NCBI GenBank assembly: GCA_003134435.1
Contig: PLBE01000152.1
Location: 733-45,386, forward strand
DNA length: 44,654 nucleotides
Direction of reading: 5' to 3'
DNA from: Acidobacteriaceae bacterium
GTDB lineage: Bacteria; Acidobacteriota; Terriglobia; Terriglobales; Acidobacteriaceae
A model generated the notes under the pieces. It was not told the DNA's origin and did not search any database. It saw nothing but the letters and a program-made list of their open reading frames with translations. Of this stretch, positions 693 to 9,211 are shown piece after piece; within the stretch, counting starts at the first letter, position 1, and each line of letters begins with the position of its first letter. Position numbers and translations under genes: made by a program.

Positions 693-3600
693 CTATTGGG
701 TAGAGACGAGGCAAGCCTCGTCCTTACAGGTGTGATTCTCCGCCGTGCCGCCATCTTTGTCTCTGTCTTTGTCTCTGTCGCGTTCCGTCGGGACCGCTGG
801 CGGAGTGGCCGTTGCGTCCGCCACCGGAGACGCAACGTCGGCATCGCCATGCGGCACGGAAGCGAGTCCGCAAGCATCCGCTCCCACGTCCGAACATACA
901 CTCTGGCCTCCAGCCCAATCATCCAGAGGATTACTCGGCGGAATCGCGAATAATACCTCGAAGGAATTTTGGGGCTCGGCCATCAGCGAATCCTTCAGTG
1001 AACCAACATTCGCGGCAAATCCCAGATCGCCCGGCGCGGTCTGAGCCTTGGCTGGAATGCTCGGCGCACTCCGAACAATCGCCGCCAGACTCTCCAACTG
1101 AAATTGCGCGGTCGATGAGCCCGCCCCCACCGCAATCAATACCTCGCACGGACCTACGTTTCCAGTACTTGGCTCGAGCGACGCCGTGCCGTCCTGCGCG
1201 CTCACGACCTGCGCTTGGAACGCCCCCAGCAGCACCGGCACCGCGTCACTCCCCACCAGTGCGTCACCACCCGCCAGGCCTCCCGATCCTGCACTGATAC
1301 TTCCTGCACTGATACTTCCTGCACTGATGCCTCCCGCGCTGACCCTCGCCAGCGTCGTATTAAAGTTGACGTTCACTCCCATCACTGGATTCGCGGCCAG
1401 CGAGCCATCGGTCACTCGCATGACGAGCGGCTGAAAGGACTGCCCAGTCAGCACAAACTGCGACGACCCACTCACCGTCTCCAACGTCCAGAACGACGGC
1501 GGAGTCGAGAACAACGTGAAAGGCTGCCTGCTGCAGGGCGCCAGACTGGGAGCAGCGCAAACACTCACTTGCACGCTCGCATTCTGATTCGTGAGCTGCG
1601 CACTGACGGTTGCCAATCCCGAACCGTTCGTAGTCGCGCTCGTCGCCGAAAGCACGGCTGCGCCGTTTGTGACCGTGAAAATGACGTTAACATTCGCCGT
1701 CGGCACGCCCGCATCCAGCGCTTCGACCGTAAGCGGAATGGCGACCGACGCGCCTTGCCCAACCCAGTGCGTCGGCGTCAACGCCACCAGATCGAGCGCC
1801 GACGAAGTGCCCAACACCGTGGCCTGTTGCGATTGCGGTGAAGAGTACGAGGCGGGCGCCAGCGCGATCGTGATCGTACTCGGTCCGGTCGCGCTGGGAG
1901 TCACCCAACTCGACGATTCGCCCGCTTCATCGCTCAGCACTGAACACGAACCCGCAGCGCCGCATACCGAGAACTGCAATCCGTTGGTCGCGCTCCAGGC
2001 TATCGTCGCCCCACTCACCGGCGTTACTCCGTCGGCGGCAACTGCACGCACGCGAATCGCATTGGCCGCTTGCGATCCAATCGGAGCCGACGGCTCCGCC
2101 CCTTGCAACAAAAGCAAAAAATCTGTGGCCGCGGCGCCATACGTCACTGCGCCAATCATCTGAGAAAAAGCGCCACTCGCCGGATCCGTAACCTCGATCG
2201 TAGCCGTCCCATCCTGCGATGCGGGAGGCACCATCACTTCAATCTGGCTTGCCGAAGCACCCAGAACGCTGCCGCCGTTGCCCGCCACGCTCACTTGCTG
2301 GCTGGGATTGAACCCCGTTCCCTTGAGGGTCGCCACTCCGCCCAACAGGCTCAGGCGCGCCGGCGTCACCGTATCCGAATAGAGCAGACGAGCCTGGTAG
2401 AAGTAATCTGGCCTCCCGTCTCCGCGGTAGTCGGCCACGCCCACCCGGAACGCACCGGAGACGCTGAACTGCGCATCCAGACGGCTCATGCCAAACGTCT
2501 CCGAATTGAATGCCGAGGCGGTGGATGCAGCCGCGGGATTCCCGCTCTCGTCGCTCAGTTGCCACATGCCGATGACAGGCTGCAGCTTGGATTCCGTGGG
2601 CTGTCCCGTTTCGTCAACCGCAATCACCGAAACCGACGCCGTCCGGTTGGCTTGGACCGTAAATTGGAAAAAATCGGTACTGCCGTATCCCGAAATCCAC
2701 GACCCCCATCCCCCTCCCAACGGAAGCGCACCAGGCGTCGCATAACTTGTTCCGCTGCCCGGATGCGCCTGCGCGACTTCACTTTGCAACATCAGAATGT
2801 CCTGCTCTACGTTCGATCCGCTCTGAATTGTCACGACAACCGGAGCGAAAGAACCCGAGGGCGTCACTTGTGTCGGAGCATACGGCTCCACGCCCTGGGA
2901 CCAATTCGGGTCCAGCGCCTCCACGCTTAGCTGGTACTGGGCGGTGCTCTGTCCAGCAGGAATCGTCAGTTGACCCAGGTCGAACAACCCTTCCAGCGAA
3001 GGATCCTCCGATCCCCACCGGTCGTAACGAAGTCCGTTCGCCTCCAGGTATCCATCAACGATGTTGCCCGCATTGCCATGAAATGCAAATCCTGAAACCG
3101 ATGAGCCAACGTACCGCCGCGAAGGCTCCCCGGATTCGTCCATCAACCGCGCCACCACATTGACTCCCTGCATCGGTTGCCCCGCGTTCCCCGATGCATC
3201 CGTGAAGTACACGCTGCCATAAATTCTGCCATCCGGTTGCGGATTCCCGCTCGCTGGATAAAGCCGCGCCAGCGCGTCCATGTCATCCATCTTCGGTACC
3301 GCAGCGTCGGGATAGCAGGCGCTAATCGGCACGCAGGAAATCGGATCGCTGAAATGCATCAACGGAAATCCGGCAAAATCGTCGCTCGTTGCAGGTGGGT
3401 TCTGCGTGAGCACGTTCACGTTGGCCTGCGACCAACCTAAGCCCAGAATGCGCCCCAGAACGCGCACCAACCGGTATTGAACGTCCGGCAGTTGCGCAGT
3501 CGTTGCCGCGCAGTTTCCGTTGATGACCACGAGCGCGTGAACAATGTTCCCGCTCGCGCTGAAGTTGTCCGGCCCGCCATAAACGGCGTTTGTGAAGCAA

Positions 3601-4043
3601 TCTGACAAGCCGCCGGCGCCCTGACCCAGCAGCGCGTCGGTCACCGTCCCGTCATAGTCGTAAACAATTCCAACCGGAGTGCTCGTGGCCGAGGATGCGA
3701 TGTCCAATGGGCCTGTAATGGTCCCGTTGGCAGCAATAATATTGTTACCAGTCACGTCTTCGGCCAGATGTCCCGCCTGCGACGCAACGAGGGCCACCCC
3801 GGAAACGCCAGTCCAGGCGCCAAAAGCGGTGGCCACGAACGTATCGGCCTGCGCCCCAGGCAGAATCGGGCTCAAGTCTCCCTGATCGGTGAAATACTGC
3901 ACCGAACTGTTCGCCCAAATCAGCGCTTGTCCTTCAACTCCAGGAGCGTAGCCCGAACCCGCCACGAACGCCGGCCCTCCCGCGCACACGATGACGGTGC
4001 TGCAATGGAGAAAAACCACGAATGCCATCATTCGCCAGCGCAT
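693..4043 (-). CDS. Large secreted protein with degenerate matrixin-like domain, PPC/IPT and Ig-like repeats
   Basis: A 1116-residue protein with a signal peptide (residues 1-22). Residues about 35-265 look like a matrixin (M10-type metzincin) domain: a W-rich helix near residue 77, a helix ending in LGRILGLGWS (196-205), a Met-turn-like PLMH (227-230) and the closing DDMDALARLYP. In active matrixins the helix reads HExxHxxGxxH; here all three histidines and the glutamate are replaced (R194, V195, R198, W204), while the glycines remain. It should therefore lack protease activity. After it come a carboxypeptidase-regulatory-like domain (about 270-430), a PPC-like domain (about 440-555), an IPT/TIG domain (about 565-640) and Big_1-like repeats. 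A low-complexity AGSIS tract follows, then a charged RDKD tail. The start lies 4 nt after the upstream gene's stop, with GAGGAG ahead of it. Domain borders are approximate; a surface or binding role is inferred. Confidence 0.85.
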   Translation of the reverse strand: MRWRMMAFVVFLHCSTVIVCAGGPAFVAGSGYAPGVEGQALIWANSSVQYFTDQGDLSPILPGAQADTFVATAFGAWTGVSGVALVASQAGHLAEDVTGNNIIAANGTITGPLDIASSATSTPVGIVYDYDGTVTDALLGQGAGGLSDCFTNAVYGGPDNFSASGNIVHALVVINGNCAATTAQLPDVQYRLVRVLGRILGLGWSQANVNVLTQNPPATSDDFAGFPLMHFSDPISCVPISACYPDAAVPKMDDMDALARLYPASGNPQPDGRIYGSVYFTDASGNAGQPMQGVNVVARLMDESGEPSRRYVGSSVSGFAFHGNAGNIVDGYLEANGLRYDRWGSEDPSLEGLFDLGQLTIPAGQSTAQYQLSVEALDPNWSQGVEPYAPTQVTPSGSFAPVVVTIQSGSNVEQDILMLQSEVAQAHPGSGTSYATPGALPLGGGWGSWISGYGSTDFFQFTVQANRTASVSVIAVDETGQPTESKLQPVIGMWQLSDESGNPAAASTASAFNSETFGMSRLDAQFSVSGAFRVGVADYRGDGRPDYFYQARLLYSDTVTPARLSLLGGVATLKGTGFNPSQQVSVAGNGGSVLGASASQIEVMVPPASQDGTATIEVTDPASGAFSQMIGAVTYGAAATDFLLLLQGAEPSAPIGSQAANAIRVRAVAADGVTPVSGATIAWSATNGLQFSVCGAAGSCSVLSDEAGESSSWVTPSATGPSTITIALAPASYSSPQSQQATVLGTSSALDLVALTPTHWVGQGASVAIPLTVEALDAGVPTANVNVIFTVTNGAAVLSATSATTNGSGLATVSAQLTNQNASVQVSVCAAPSLAPCSRQPFTLFSTPPSFWTLETVSGSSQFVLTGQSFQPLVMRVTDGSLAANPVMGVNVNFNTTLARVSAGGISAGSISAGSISAGSGGLAGGDALVGSDAVPVLLGAFQAQVVSAQDGTASLEPSTGNVGPCEVLIAVGAGSSTAQFQLESLAAIVRSAPSIPAKAQTAPGDLGFAANVGSLKDSLMAEPQNSFEVLFAIPPSNPLDDWAGGQSVCSDVGADACGLASVPHGDADVASPVADATATPPAVPTERDRDKDRDKDGGTAENHTCKDEACLVSTQ
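1288..1332. repeat. Three tandem 15-bp units inside the large secreted protein gene
   Basis: Units start at 1288, 1303 and 1318. The first two are identical (cctgcactgatactt) and the third differs by two or three bases. They encode the repeated AGSIS pentapeptide, so unit number can change without breaking the frame. Confidence 0.85.
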
Positions 4044-4046
4044 GAC

Positions 4047-4697
4047 TTACTCCTCTCGGGCCCTGCCGATGGCCCGCTCCAGTTGATTCACGCTGACTCC
4101 GGCTTCAATCCCAATATCCTTACTTGCCAGCGCACGGGACCGGGAAAAAACCGTGCTCCCTGTGTCAATCGCCGCGGCAGGGCCATGTTCAATCGCTCGT
4201 ATGTTTTGCCCTCTCCGGTCGAGTTCAAACTGCCCTGACGCACCACCCACCGGACTCGTCAGGCCCAGTCGGCTTATCGGGTACAAAAAGATCAAAATGT
4301 GCTGGCCCCTTCGCATCGGGCGAAATCTCAGCTGAGCTCCGGTCCACTCGTGTATGGTGAGAGTTTGTCCAGTCTCCACCCCCGCAATCGCGTGGTCCAC
4401 GCGAAAACTGAGCTGTACCGTCGTGGGAAATCTTCCGATCGACCGATCGCCGACTGCAGTTGATAATGACGCGCTCTGGCTCGCTTCACTAAGGACCGTC
4501 CCCGCGAATATCATCCCGGCCCGGCGCGAAACTTGCTTCCACTGTGCACCGAGAACTCGCTCGGCAGCGGCCTGATCGGACTCCCGATCAGACTGTTGAC
4601 AACTTGCATAGTTTGGCCGAAGAACACCCAGCAGACAGAAGCTCAACATAACAACCACCGCAAGAACGAATGCGCGTCTACACCCAGGCATGGCCAA
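4047..4697 (-). CDS. Small secreted protein of unknown function, partner of the pseudo-matrixin
   Basis: A 216-residue protein with an N-terminal hydrophobic export segment (about 8-28) ending near a cysteine at 33. The core (about 60-150) alternates beta-strand-like stretches: IFAGTVL, a VQLSFRVD strand, a TLTIHEW strand and HILIFLYP. This pattern recalls OB-fold/TIMP-netrin-like modules found in bacterial secreted proteins, but the usual cysteine pairs are missing, so the resemblance is only suggestive. Its stop lies 4 nt before the start of the 1116-residue protein, which implies one transcript and coupled translation. I do not recognise a named family. Confidence 0.75.
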   Translation of the reverse strand: MAMPGCRRAFVLAVVVMLSFCLLGVLRPNYASCQQSDRESDQAAAERVLGAQWKQVSRRAGMIFAGTVLSEASQSASLSTAVGDRSIGRFPTTVQLSFRVDHAIAGVETGQTLTIHEWTGAQLRFRPMRRGQHILIFLYPISRLGLTSPVGGASGQFELDRRGQNIRAIEHGPAAAIDTGSTVFSRSRALASKDIGIEAGVSVNQLERAIGRAREE

Positions 4698-5257: not shown

Positions 5258-6187
5258 CTATCGATAGTTCTGCTCGATCCATTCCGGATAGCGATACTTC
5301 AGCATGTAACAGATCCACATTCCCTGCGCGGTTGAGTGTGGGTTCGACCACTCATCGCCAAAAGAGAAGCGATATGGCGTTCGGCTCCAACCGTTCCAGT
5401 TTTCCAGCCAACCCCCGTCGATCTGTTGCGCAGCAAAAGCTCTTTCGACCCATCGGGGCCGGATCAGATCGGGCCTGCCGGCGGCCAGCAGAAATGCGAG
5501 CCGTTGCAGGTAGAGGTCCGTTACCCGAAAATCGATAGCAGCCTCCCATGCGATTCGCTCCTCGATTCTCTGCATCAGGCGATCCAAATCGGGCGTAGAA
5601 CCTTTGGATCTTCGGTAGAAGTACAGGGCGAACAGTTGGTGCGTTGCTTTCCCCGTTCGATACTTGTCCGCAGAGAACATGTCTTCCAATTCCTTGGGCG
5701 ACAGGCGGACGTCGTTCGGAGCGGCTCCGTGTAAGATCCAACGTTGGTACTCCTCTAAACTCTGTAGCTCGCGTTCGCTCGGGGCACGCGTCGGTATCGC
5801 GGGATCGACCATCTTGCCTAAAACAATCGCTTCGACCTTCCAGGCGTCAACGAAACTGGAACCGAGTGCCTTCATCCGTGGCTCATCGGAAAGCGAGGCA
5901 CAGTCCACCACCATGTGGGCGAGCGCGGAGTTGGATATAAGAGAAAGGCCTCTTGGCGTCGGGACGCCTCCCGTCGCAGTTCGCTGATACTGCCCGACCA
6001 CCCAGTCCGTGCTGCGCTCCAGCGTATGATCGAGATTCCCCACGAACTCCGCTCGGGAAGGTCGCCGGATCGAGGCATTGTTGTTGAGTAGCGCTATTCC
6101 GAGCGCCAACGTCAATACGATTGCCAGGAATACCGCAATTCGTCGCAGCCATTTCGTTACGGACCGCATCTTGGGACGCGCTGCCAC
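5258..6187 (-). CDS. Membrane-anchored alpha/alpha-toroid-like protein of unknown function
   Basis: A 309-residue protein with one N-terminal transmembrane segment (about 13-35) after basic residues, so most of it lies outside the cytoplasm. The rest is helical. Near the C-terminus it has AAQQIDGGW followed by a second W-rich, HSTAQGMW stretch. The QxxDGGW pattern resembles the QW-type motifs of alpha/alpha-toroid folds (terpene cyclases, prenyltransferases), although no acidic cyclase motif such as DxDD is seen. It starts (GTG) 4 nt after the stop of the VWA gene, so the two are probably translated together. An ATG at 6169 is an alternative start. Function not recognised. Confidence 0.7.
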   Translation of the reverse strand: MAARPKMRSVTKWLRRIAVFLAIVLTLALGIALLNNNASIRRPSRAEFVGNLDHTLERSTDWVVGQYQRTATGGVPTPRGLSLISNSALAHMVVDCASLSDEPRMKALGSSFVDAWKVEAIVLGKMVDPAIPTRAPSERELQSLEEYQRWILHGAAPNDVRLSPKELEDMFSADKYRTGKATHQLFALYFYRRSKGSTPDLDRLMQRIEERIAWEAAIDFRVTDLYLQRLAFLLAAGRPDLIRPRWVERAFAAQQIDGGWLENWNGWSRTPYRFSFGDEWSNPHSTAQGMWICYMLKYRYPEWIEQNYR

Positions 6188-6191
6188 GTTC

Positions 6192-7442
6192 TTAGTGAAT
6201 CGTCTTCGTTTTCCGCGACATGTAATCCATCAGCAAATACTGGCCGAGCGTATACGGCGTGGTGAAATAAGCCTTTCCCCGGCACATTTGCGTCACTTTC
6301 TGCACGAACTGCACCAGCCCATAATCCGACGCCAGCATAAACGTATTGATCAGCACACCCGCCCGTTTGCATTTCGAAACTTCTTCCAGCGTCTCGCTCA
6401 CCACCAGAGGGTCGAGCCCAAACGCGTTCTTATAGATGCGCCCATCCTCCAGCGTCAGCGCCGAAGGCTTGCCATCCGTGATCATCACGATTTGCTTCAT
6501 GTCCTTGCGCTGGCGTTGCAAAATCCGTTGCGCCATCCGCAACCCTTCCCGCGTGTTCGTATAGTACGGTCCTACCTTCACCCGCGCCAGTTGCGACAGT
6601 GGAACTTCTTCCGCCGAATCGTGGAACAGCACTAGCGACAACGAGTCTCCCGGATACTGCGTCCGAATCAACTGCGACAACGCCATCGCCACTTTCTTCG
6701 CCGGAGTAAATCTGTCTTCGCCATACAAAATCATCGAATGGGAACAGTCCAGCATCAGCACCGTCGCGCATGACGACTGGTACTCGCACTGGTGCACCTG
6801 CAAGTCGCTGTACTCGAGATTCAGCGGAAGTCCGAGTCCTTCCCGCTGAATCGCCGAAGAAAGCGTCGCCGTAATATCGAGGTTCAACGTGTCGCCAAAT
6901 TCGTAGGACTTCGAAGCTCCGCTCGCCTCGATGCCCGTCGCCATGTCGCGAGTGTCATGACGCCCAAAGCTCGACTTCCCCAGCGACCCCAGCAAGTCGC
7001 GCAGCGCTTTGAATCCCAGAAAGTCGAGACTCTTATCCGTGATCTCGAACTTCGCCTGCTGCGCCTCTCCCACCTGCCCGCCCACGCTCGATTGTTTGGA
7101 ACGATCGGGCGCCTGGGCTTCGAATGGCTCGTCAATCGAAATATAATCTTCCTGCTGCATGCGCTCGATCAGCTTCTCGATCACTTCTTCGAGTTCGCCA
7201 TCCATCTGCATCTGCTGCAACCGCTCGCGCATTTCTTCGTCAAACATCTCTCCATTGAGCAGCGCCTGTTCCAGCGCCCGCCGTAACTCATCCAGCGTTT
7301 TCTCGCCATCGGGCAGTTCATACCAGAAATTGTCGTTGAATCCGCTCTGCAGAAAATAATCGGAGAGTGCGCTGAGCAGATCCTCCATGCTCATGTCGCC
7401 AGCCGGGTCGGGCACGTATTTCGAGTAGCGGATGCGTTTCAT
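6192..7442 (-). CDS. VWA domain protein paired with an AAA+ ATPase
   Basis: A 416-residue soluble protein. Residues 1-220 are mostly charged helices with no signal peptide. A von Willebrand factor A domain occupies about 225-416: the metal site (MIDAS) shows DCSHS at 232-236, a threonine near 295 and ITDGKP with D323. All MIDAS positions look intact, so metal-dependent ligand binding is expected. VWA proteins encoded beside MoxR/ChlI-type ATPases usually act with them, as BchD does with BchI, or as co-chaperones that assemble or load metal into a target. The ATPase gene is the next gene upstream (153 nt away); the membrane-anchored toroid protein follows after 4 nt. The target is unknown. Confidence 0.85.
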
Positions 7443-7445
7443 AAA

Positions 7446-7586
7446 GCGGTTCTCAGTTCTCAGTCCCCGGTTCTCAGTAAGACCAGTCCCACACTATTTT
7501 CCTCGTCGCTCCCTTGTGCTCTCTGTGATGAAACCTCTAAGCGTCCGAAAGCGCTGAGAACTGAGAAACCGGGAACCGAGAACTGC
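7446..7586. repeat. Imperfect inverted repeat of the 'gagaactgagaac' family between the ATPase and VWA genes
   Basis: The left arm at 7446-7477 is built of ttctcag/ttctcgg units and the right arm at 7553-7586 of the complementary gagaactgag units, about 75 nt apart. The same unit recurs at 9831-9917. It could form a hairpin in the transcript between the two genes. Confidence 0.7.
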
Positions 7587-7595
7587 AAAATCAGC

Positions 7596-9083
7596 TTAAT
7601 TAAATCCCCTCTTCCGTCCGAACCCCGGCTCTTCCGGTTCGTACACCCGCTCTTGTTTTTTCGAAGGTTTCTCCCCCGCCGTGAACACCCGCTCTTCGTT
7701 GCGTCCTATTCTCTTGTGCGCGTGCAAGCCCTCCAATACGAACTCCGCCGCCGACACCTGCATCTCCGCGCTGTCTTTCGGGCCGACATTCAGCTTGACC
7801 AGCTTTTCCATCAGTCCCTGAATCTGACTCAACCCCTCGAGCACATCCTCGGCCCCGGCACTGTCGCTGAGTTGAATCTCTCCGCCCAGATCGAACCACT
7901 GCACGATCTGGTTCATGTTCACTCCATGCAGATGCGTGTCGAACGCCTTCGCCACCGCCGTGCGGATCAACTCGCGGCTCACAAAATCCGCGCCCTTCAT
8001 CTCGCCTTCATATTCAAGCTCCAGCTTGCCCGTGATCGCAGGCAGAGCCGCGTAGATGTCGCTGATGCGCGGCACGATCAAGGTCTCCTGATGTGTCAGC
8101 GCCCGCCGCTCGGCATTCGAAACCACGTTCTCGATCGCCGAGATCGGCAGCCGTTGGCTAACTCCCGACCGCTTGTCGATCTTCTTGTCGTCACGCGCCG
8201 CAAAGGCGATCCGCTCGATCACTTCGTTAACATATTTTGGAATGCGAAGTTGCGATCCATTACGCTCAATCCACGCTTCCTGCGCCGTGATCGCGATGCC
8301 TTCCTCCACCGTCGCCGGATAGTGCGTTCGAATCTCCGACCCGATGCGATCTTTCAACGGCGTAATAATCTTCCCCCGCGCCGTGTAGTCCTCCGGATTC
8401 GCGCTGAATACGATCGCAACATCCAGCGGCAGCCGAATCGGGTATCCCTTAATCTGCACATCCCCTTCCTGCATGATGTTGAAGAGCCCAACCTGAATCT
8501 TGCCCGCCAGATCGGGCAATTCGTTAATCGCAAAAATTCCGCGGTTGGCCCGCGGCAGCAATCCATAATGCACTGTGAACTCGCTCGACAATTCGTGCCC
8601 GCCACGCGCCGCCTTGATGGGATCGATATCGCCGATCAGATCCGCAATCGTGACATCGGGAGTAGCTAGCTTCTCCACGTAACGGTGCTCCGGGGTTAGC
8701 CACGCGATCGGCGCGGCGTCTCCTTCCTTCGCCACCAGTTCGCGGCAGCGCCGGCAGATCGGAGCATACGGATTATCGTGAATCTCACAGCCCGAGATGT
8801 ACGGCATCTCCGGATCAAGCAGCGCAGTAAGCGCCCGCAGAATGCGGCTCTTCGCTTGCCCGCGTAATCCCAGCAGAATAAAGTTATGCCGCGACAAGAT
8901 CGCGTTCACAATCTGCGGCACCACCGTGTCATCGTATCCAACGATGCCGGGAAATATCGGACCACCCTCCCGCAGCCGCGACATCAGGTTTTCGCGCAAC
9001 TCGTCTTTGACCCGGCGCGATCCGAGACGCTGTGCAGTGAAAGAGCTTTGGCGCAACTCGCCGAGAGAACGGGCAACACTCAT
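7596..9083 (-). CDS. ChlI/MoxR-like AAA+ ATPase with Cys/His insertion
   Basis: About 495 residues, related to the magnesium-chelatase ChlI/MoxR group of AAA+ ATPases. Walker A is GLRGQAKS (about 72-79 from the chosen start). The Walker B region reads GIFAINELPDL, where the usual DE is NE. Then come sensor-1 (VFSANPED) and an arginine-rich stretch typical of the lid domain. Between Walker A and B there is a C-x2-H-x7-C-x2-C cluster that could bind zinc. The ATG at 9083 was preferred to a GTG at 9101; neither has a strong ribosome site. These ATPases remodel or metallate targets through a VWA partner, encoded here just downstream. Loss of the Walker B aspartate may weaken magnesium binding, but the glutamate that activates water is kept. 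Confidence 0.85.
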   Translation of the reverse strand: MSVARSLGELRQSSFTAQRLGSRRVKDELRENLMSRLREGGPIFPGIVGYDDTVVPQIVNAILSRHNFILLGLRGQAKSRILRALTALLDPEMPYISGCEIHDNPYAPICRRCRELVAKEGDAAPIAWLTPEHRYVEKLATPDVTIADLIGDIDPIKAARGGHELSSEFTVHYGLLPRANRGIFAINELPDLAGKIQVGLFNIMQEGDVQIKGYPIRLPLDVAIVFSANPEDYTARGKIITPLKDRIGSEIRTHYPATVEEGIAITAQEAWIERNGSQLRIPKYVNEVIERIAFAARDDKKIDKRSGVSQRLPISAIENVVSNAERRALTHQETLIVPRISDIYAALPAITGKLELEYEGEMKGADFVSRELIRTAVAKAFDTHLHGVNMNQIVQWFDLGGEIQLSDSAGAEDVLEGLSQIQGLMEKLVKLNVGPKDSAEMQVSAAEFVLEGLHAHKRIGRNEERVFTAGEKPSKKQERVYEPEEPGFGRKRGFN

Positions 9084-9211
9084 GGCAGGAACTACCCCCA
9101 CAGGAAAAAGCCTTATGCGGATTATACCGCCCGAGCGAATCGTCAGTCGTCAGTCATCTGCCATCAGTAGGAACTGGTTTTAGCCGAAGGCTGAGCGCCG
9201 GAGGCTCCCCC

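Follow-up and report, generated by a model that had tools for sequence, protein, structure and literature searches.

The locus

The window, by which we mean the whole stretch of 44,654 nucleotides that was analyzed, carries on its minus strand a gene for a large protein with a matrixin domain whose catalytic residues have been replaced, followed by a long tail. A preliminary description of this DNA gave the full gene as 693-4043 and its product as 1116 residues, and both hold. Directly upstream, with 3 bases between its stop codon and the pseudo-matrixin ATG, lies a second gene, whose small product has an NTR/TIMP-like fold. This gene adjoining the dead matrixin gene is new here and was absent from the preliminary description. 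Throughout, dead and active rows are the 62 (window included) and 42 aligned sequences, respectively, in which we read the active-site helix; they were sorted into dead and active by residue 194, and many of the dead rows are closely related. The main features are as follows.

693-4043, minus strand: pseudo-matrixin gene, 1116 amino acids, with a hydrophobic start, a matrixin domain and a tail with an Ig-like domain
1566-1736, minus strand: Big_1 Ig-like domain, residues 770-826, a Pfam match just under the cut-off
3249-3974, minus strand: pseudo-matrixin domain, residues 24-265, from the structure model and fold searches
3255-3287, minus strand: closing helix DDMDALARLYP, residues 253-263, with D254 in every row
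3351-3368, minus strand: Met-turn-like FPLMHF, residues 226-231, with M229 in 62/62 dead and 42/42 active rows
3429-3464, minus strand: dead active-site helix R194-V-L-G-R198-I-L-G-L-G-W204-S205, aligned with the HExxHxxGxxH of the 42 active rows
4047-4697, minus strand: partner gene, NTR/TIMP-like fold, 216 amino acids from a TTG or 214 amino acids from an ATG at 4691

The N-terminus of the large protein is hydrophobic and, judged by eye, signal-peptide-like, and the protein is probably secreted or otherwise exported. Its tail had been described as Ig/IPT. The Ig-like part of that description stands, in the form of a single Big_1 match just under the cut-off, whereas IPT/TIG was seen only in relatives: it lies above the Pfam cut-off in both dead relatives scanned (L031 and L061). 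At an E-value of 1, Pfam gave Big_1 and weaker matches for the window protein, all of them in the tail, and NCBIfam gave intimin models only, over the same Ig-like stretch as Big_1.

The tail also includes a low-complexity Gly/Ser/Ala stretch (GGISAGSISAGSISAGSGGLAGG, window 1266-1334, minus strand) and the segment DYRGDGRPDY (residues 538-547, window 2403-2432, minus strand), in which eight residues are invariant in the 24 long sequences aligned and which resembles a motif of the calcium-loop type. A PADLOC scan of the pseudo-matrixin and partner proteins gave no match.

A matrixin domain without its active site

The zinc-binding HExxHxxGxxH/D motif of matrixin (M10) peptidases is missing from the dead rows. 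In the window protein, residues 194-205 read RVLGRILGLGWS (window 3429-3464, minus strand; the preliminary description had 3430-3467, an error of at most 3 bases). Set against HExxHxxGxxH, the first ligand His has become R194, the catalytic Glu V195, the second His R198 and the third His W204, so that the zinc ligands and the catalytic glutamate are replaced at all four positions, just as the preliminary description had said. It was also right that the Met-turn-like PLMH, which lies within residues 226-231, and the closing DDMDALARLYP have been kept, and by sequence M229 is the Met-turn methionine of matrixin peptidases. Chance can be set aside, because 42 HExxH rows can be aligned with the domain and, of five HExxH proteins that we scanned, three pass Pfam Matrixin.

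Sequence libraries do not recognize the window protein as a matrixin. Matrixin is absent from its matches in Pfam (E 1 or better) and in NCBIfam, and its first 267 residues have no match by sequence in the PDB; the link to matrixins therefore comes through relatives and through the fold. As regards relatives, a profile of the dead rows matches HExxH proteins, with a best E-value of 2.5e-35 in 250 genomes of the class, and dead and active sequences can be aligned jointly, both of which point to common ancestry with active matrixins. Among the five HExxH homologs scanned, L077, L078 and L088 pass the Pfam Matrixin cut-off, and L086 and L087 match below it.

As regards the fold, we modeled residues 24-282 on the basis of 28 sequences (pLDDT 78.7, pTM 0.79). 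The five models differ, with mean pLDDT ranging from 78.7 to 61.5, and the Met-turn region is weak (pLDDT about 48-60). Searching with the model in Foldseek, we found that matrix metalloproteinases fill the best 50 matches listed. The top match, 1cxv (MMP-13), has an E-value of 9.6e-4, the only one at 0.001 or better among the matches listed, and a TM-score of 0.39 by query length and 0.60 by target length. A second structural aligner ranked the bacterial matrixin karilysin (2xs3) first, with a Z-score of 13.1 over 159 residues and an rmsd of 3.6. The model has the metzincin fold, the active-site helix and the C-terminal helix of M10 matrixins, with the Met-turn stretch at low confidence. A structure prediction had been proposed earlier as a way of refuting the matrixin assignment; with a metzincin fold found and karilysin first in the second aligner, the refutation failed.

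Loss of the zinc site across relatives

An early search with the protein matched 32 of 61 genomes, its own included, of which 31 belong to the window's family; the match outside the family (G057) was weak and confined to the tail, and 8 of the 13 family members from other genera matched. A profile of the domain matched 58 of 297 genomes of the phylum, 26 of them from the window's family (f1 in our labeling), and 60 of 250 genomes of the class, 46 of them from f1; a further 12 f1 genomes are listed in the class search without any match to the domain profile. Of the matched genomes from other families, we read 22 of 32 in the phylum search, leaving out 10 weak ones and some second matches, and 14 of 14 in the class search, leaving out a second match in G420. 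Of the same-family genomes matched in the class search, G477, G488, G506 and G539 were also left unread. Duplicates were removed before alignment, together with L016, L017, L021, L026 and L029, which are broken or cut; in L016, L017, L021 and L026, the first ligand is likewise R and the third is W. The helix is missing from L132b, which is a fragment.

Residue 194, by which the rows were sorted, is R in 62/62 dead rows. Residue 195 is A in 25, V in 23, T in 6, M in 3, G in 2 and I, S and K in 1 each, and is never Glu. At residue 198, R is found in 55 rows (with E 2, S 2, Y 1, G 1 and Q 1), and at residue 204, W is found in 56 (with Y 4, A 1 and F 1), His being absent. In the active rows, the same ligand and glutamate positions are H, E, H and H in 42/42. 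All dead rows come from f1 and from two MAGs of the genome collection (L035 and L046). Of the active rows, 40 belong to other families of the class or phylum and 2 to one f1 genus. The f1 genome G533 (L114) has two active HEFGH matrixins, with an NTR-like gene beside each.

The dead rows share further residues that set them apart from the active ones:

3315-3317, minus strand: C243, in 62/62 dead and 0/42 active rows
3510-3512, minus strand: C178, in 61/62 dead and 0/42 active rows
3537-3539, minus strand: H169, in 62/62 dead and 0/42 active rows
3597-3599, minus strand: C149, in 62/62 dead and 0/42 active rows

In addition, D114 is found in 62/62 dead rows, with one D at this position among the active rows. 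A disulfide between C149 and C178 would be our guess.

We built trees from which the motif columns had been removed, first with 72 rows and again with 101, and in both cases the dead rows form one side of a single branch with an SH-aLRT of 100. One change explains the loss on each of the two trees, which are quick trees with no bootstraps and no inferred root. The 101-row tree omits L100, L097, L093 and L132b, the first three of which are present in the 72-row tree. We take HExxH to be ancestral because of its spread outside the dead clade and in the matrixin family at large. Homologs had been suggested as a further check of whether the loss is fixed: it is, and every active homolog falls outside the dead clade. 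The second refutation named beforehand, homologs whose real active site is elsewhere, failed like the first.

The window's own genome has no active matrixin detectable by PF00413 or by the active-clade profile, the latter recovering the dead gene only. In the genus-mate G019, a 342-residue protein (L162) has its HELGH intact, and two HExxH proteins (L156 and L160) are encoded by G052, which is more distant.

Selection on the domain and the tail

To describe constraint along the protein, pN/pS was calculated in nine regions from 16 rows that belong to one genus; in each region, between 4 and 28 of 120 pairs are saturated. The dead helix (residues 186-212) has a median pN/pS of 0.20, the lowest of the nine regions, and is under strong purifying selection. 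Its R194 is encoded by CGC, CGT, CGA, CGG and AGA, with Arg unchanged. The matrixin domain has a pN/pS of 0.28, and the adjoining parts of the tail match it in constraint, with 0.26 for residues 270-380 and 0.28 for residues 381-560. From residue 561 on, the tail is less constrained than the domain (0.32-0.40), and the value for residues 1-21 is 0.66. Within the genus, mean identity is 0.71 in the domain and 0.83 in the helix.

When a window of 27 codons is slid along the protein, 17/216 positions in the domain and 8/232 in the tail are at or below the helix value, so that the helix belongs to the most constrained parts of the protein without being the single most constrained one. The lowest sliding window of the whole protein, 532-558, is in the tail, and the segment DYRGDGRPDY falls inside it. 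Because the domain is kept under constraint too, it is not a mere passenger of the tail. A loss fixed in a clade is here found together with purifying selection on the altered domain.

An NTR/TIMP-like partner

The partner protein has a hydrophobic N-terminus. It matches no Pfam family (at E 0.01 there was one stray Big_7 match among 66 members), the Pfam TIMP/NTR models included, and has no match among PDB sequences. Its structure model has a pLDDT of 81.1 and a pTM of 0.71. Its best Foldseek match was PCOLCE1, through the NTR domain (E 2.4e-3, probability 1.00); agrin NtA, NTR domains of complement proteins and TIMP-1 came next, and further OB-fold proteins ranked below them. TM-scores by query length are about 0.25-0.33 for the NTR/TIMP entries. 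The second aligner gave Z-scores of up to 9.1 for complement C3/C5 NTR, 8.5 for agrin NtA and 8.0 for TIMP-3 and TIMP-1. These matches indicate, with moderate strength, an OB-type NTR fold, and because no Foldseek match reaches an E-value of 0.001 or better, we call the protein NTR/TIMP-like and not a TIMP. Potempin is absent from the fold-match lists of the partner, an absence that excludes nothing.

We iterated a partner profile on these loci, whose members thus match it by construction, and with duplicates removed it places a partner upstream on the same strand at 36/41 active and 55/67 dead loci. In 28 of the 29 genomes with a partner, it stands beside a matrixin on the same strand; the exception, G023, has no matrixin match. 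At L014, L056, L077 and L128, the stop-to-stop frames of partner and matrixin overlap by more than 400 bases. Twelve dead loci are partnerless. Three of them (L017, L029 and L035) end at a contig edge, and at the other nine (L031, L058, L059 and L103-L108), no partner is detectable in the 1.1-1.4 kb upstream, even by the most sensitive search, so a partner is not required at every locus. The partnerless active loci are L084, L089, L090, L100 and L130, two of which end at a contig edge. In many families of the phylum, such a gene precedes matrixins, whether active or dead, and the partner probably represents an unnamed bacterial NTR family.

Partners of dead and active matrixins differ in their own sequences, most simply at one tryptophan:

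4344-4346, minus strand: W118 of the partner, W in 55/55 partners of dead and 0/37 partners of active matrixins

In active-clade partners, position 118 is F in 11, V in 8, L in 6, Y in 5, I in 4 and A in 3 (n=37). These partners also have a C-terminal N..N..L segment (N 33/37, N 34/37 and L 35/37), whose columns hold the same residues in only 1/55, 1/55 and 3/55 of the dead-clade partners. As the dead rows are one clade, each of these differences amounts to one event, which at most suggests that the partner has co-evolved with the matrixin.

When the flanks (up to 6 kb) of 19 loci were surveyed for conserved neighbors, an NTR-like gene was found at 18 (the other locus, L035, ends at a contig edge), an S9 peptidase gene at 14 and a VWA gene at 12, at varying distances. 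Genes around the pair differ less among relatives: identity to the window's proteins is 92-96% for the VWA protein in 11/12 loci and 42-56% for the partner in 17/18. In the window itself, the region upstream at 5258-9101 (minus strand) encodes a 309-residue protein, a VWA-domain protein and a third protein with a weak match, just under the cut-off, to a sigma-54 activator (AAA-type).

What the dead matrixin may do

The preliminary description called the protein a pseudoenzyme derived from a matrixin, and the matrixin fold, the active homologs outside the dead clade, the single change on the trees and the purifying selection bear this out. Judging from its residues, the protein is almost certainly a non-catalytic derivative of a matrixin. 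The account of its history that we favor, with somewhat more confidence than doubt, is that, from an ancestral pair of a matrixin and an NTR/TIMP-like protein, a single early loss of the zinc site in this family left the matrixin to persist as a binding module.

The ancestor would have been a two-gene unit, a small NTR/TIMP-like protein and then an active matrixin, of the kind found in many families of the phylum. After the single, early loss of the catalytic zinc site in the window's bacterial family, what was the zinc core would now be kept together by R194 and W204, perhaps along with new disulfides. The protease half would have turned into a binding module, perhaps for the partner, and the pair, along with the Ig-like tail, may form a non-catalytic complex in the envelope or outside the cell.

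Animal TIMPs contact metzincins at the active-site cleft. Given this, and given a TIMP-like neighbor for dead as well as active forms, the most economical assumption is that the partner would continue to bind at the dead cleft in a permanent complex, and we would put the chances that the NTR-like protein is the main ligand of the domain at about even. The nine partnerless dead loci and the constraint on residues 270-560 argue against partner binding as the only role. More tentatively, and with doubt outweighing confidence, we suggest that a protease/inhibitor-like pair became a non-catalytic heterodimer early in the family, its old interface serving as a permanent structural joint. This suggestion draws on the matrixin, which lost its zinc site and gained cysteines, and on the partner, in which W118 is invariant and the N..N..L segment is gone.

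The pseudoenzyme may instead bind something else, an explanation that we think less likely than not. It could use the old cleft as a decoy or scaffold for peptides, a substrate or another protease, or it could be a surface adhesin that works mainly through its tail, in line with the preliminary description, in which the protein was probably kept for binding through its large Ig/IPT tail. The nine dead loci that keep the domain and have no detectable upstream partner would fit such a role, as would a tail that is as constrained as the domain at residues 270-560 and holds the lowest window of all at 532-558. Ig-like and TIG modules occur in adhesins, and domains of both types are present in these proteins. 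However, the partner adjoins 55/67 dead loci, and a role through the tail sits less easily with residues from 561 on being less constrained than the domain.

We consider it very improbable that the domain has remained enzymatically active, whether through a metal site that has moved or changed or through a new catalytic center (around H169 and C149, for example, together with D129, D131 and D254, which are kept). H169 and two of the three new cysteines are indeed invariant in the dead rows, the third being present in 61/62, and all are absent from the active rows. Nevertheless, the three zinc ligands and the general base are all gone, the model is that of a matrixin fold, and new cysteines in an exported protein would more simply form disulfides.

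That the gene is decaying, with a matrixin domain carried along as a passenger and a function confined to the tail or the start of the protein, is more improbable still. Some homologs are broken into several frames in draft assemblies, but the constraint on the domain disfavors decay: pN/pS is 0.28 in the domain and 0.20 in the helix against 0.66 in residues 1-21, R194 is kept in 62/62 rows, and within-genus identity is 0.71 and 0.83 in domain and helix. Finally, errors in sequencing or annotation, and likewise a fortuitous resemblance to matrixins with no real link to them, can practically be dismissed despite the lack of a Matrixin match by sequence in Pfam, NCBIfam and the PDB, given 62 different rows with the same replacement, 42 homologs with HExxH and the fold match.

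Relation to known systems

The pseudo-matrixin domain has the fold of matrixins (Pfam PF00413, MEROPS M10), with karilysin as the nearest structure, and its Met-turn Met and closing DD..LYP are common to the active homologs of the phylum. Unlike matrixins, the dead rows are without the first ligand and the Glu (62/62), their third ligand is never His, and there is no Pfam match to the family.

The closest precedent for the gene pair is Mtz-Tim of Listeria, in which adjacent genes encode a secreted metzincin and a TIMP-like lipoprotein; its authors found such pairs across Gram-positive bacteria, and the metzincin cleaves Tim while an E-to-A mutant does not (PMC8235301). In Listeria as in the window, metzincin and TIMP-like genes lie side by side as a conserved pair, a likeness in gene pairing. 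The TIMP-like gene of Mtz-Tim is downstream and its metzincin is active, whereas here the partner gene is upstream and the metzincin is dead. With an NTR/TIMP-like gene that has no Pfam family beside active bacterial matrixins, metzincin/TIMP-like pairs would seem to be wider than the Gram-positive ones reported with Listeria (PMC8235301). Potempin A and karilysin of Tannerella (PDB 8b2q) are likewise a small protein paired with a bacterial matrixin, and comparable in this pairing; potempin A inhibits an active enzyme, whereas the matrixin here is dead.

Inactive metallopeptidases, including M12 ADAMs, M14 carboxypeptidases and others, have been reviewed, with domains kept for protein binding (PMC11266112). 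The pseudopeptidase ADAMs among them are likewise metzincin domains without catalysis, and the word 'matrixin' is absent from the main text of that review. A paper on TIMP evolution treats Metazoa, and 'bacteri' is absent from its main text (PMC10755359). Among the matches listed in the open-licence literature, titles and the starts of abstracts point to no bacterial matrixin pseudoenzyme. The kinds of system are known ones, a pseudoprotease and a metzincin/TIMP-like pair; what we describe is an old pseudo-matrixin that one bacterial family has retained.

The best-known pseudo-metzincins are those of animals (ADAMs; PMC11266112). Here, one has been kept across many genera of soil bacteria in a single family. 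The active pair, the dead pair and the dead matrixin for which no partner was found make up a natural series, which lets one ask what a TIMP-like protein does for a matrixin and what remains once catalysis has gone.
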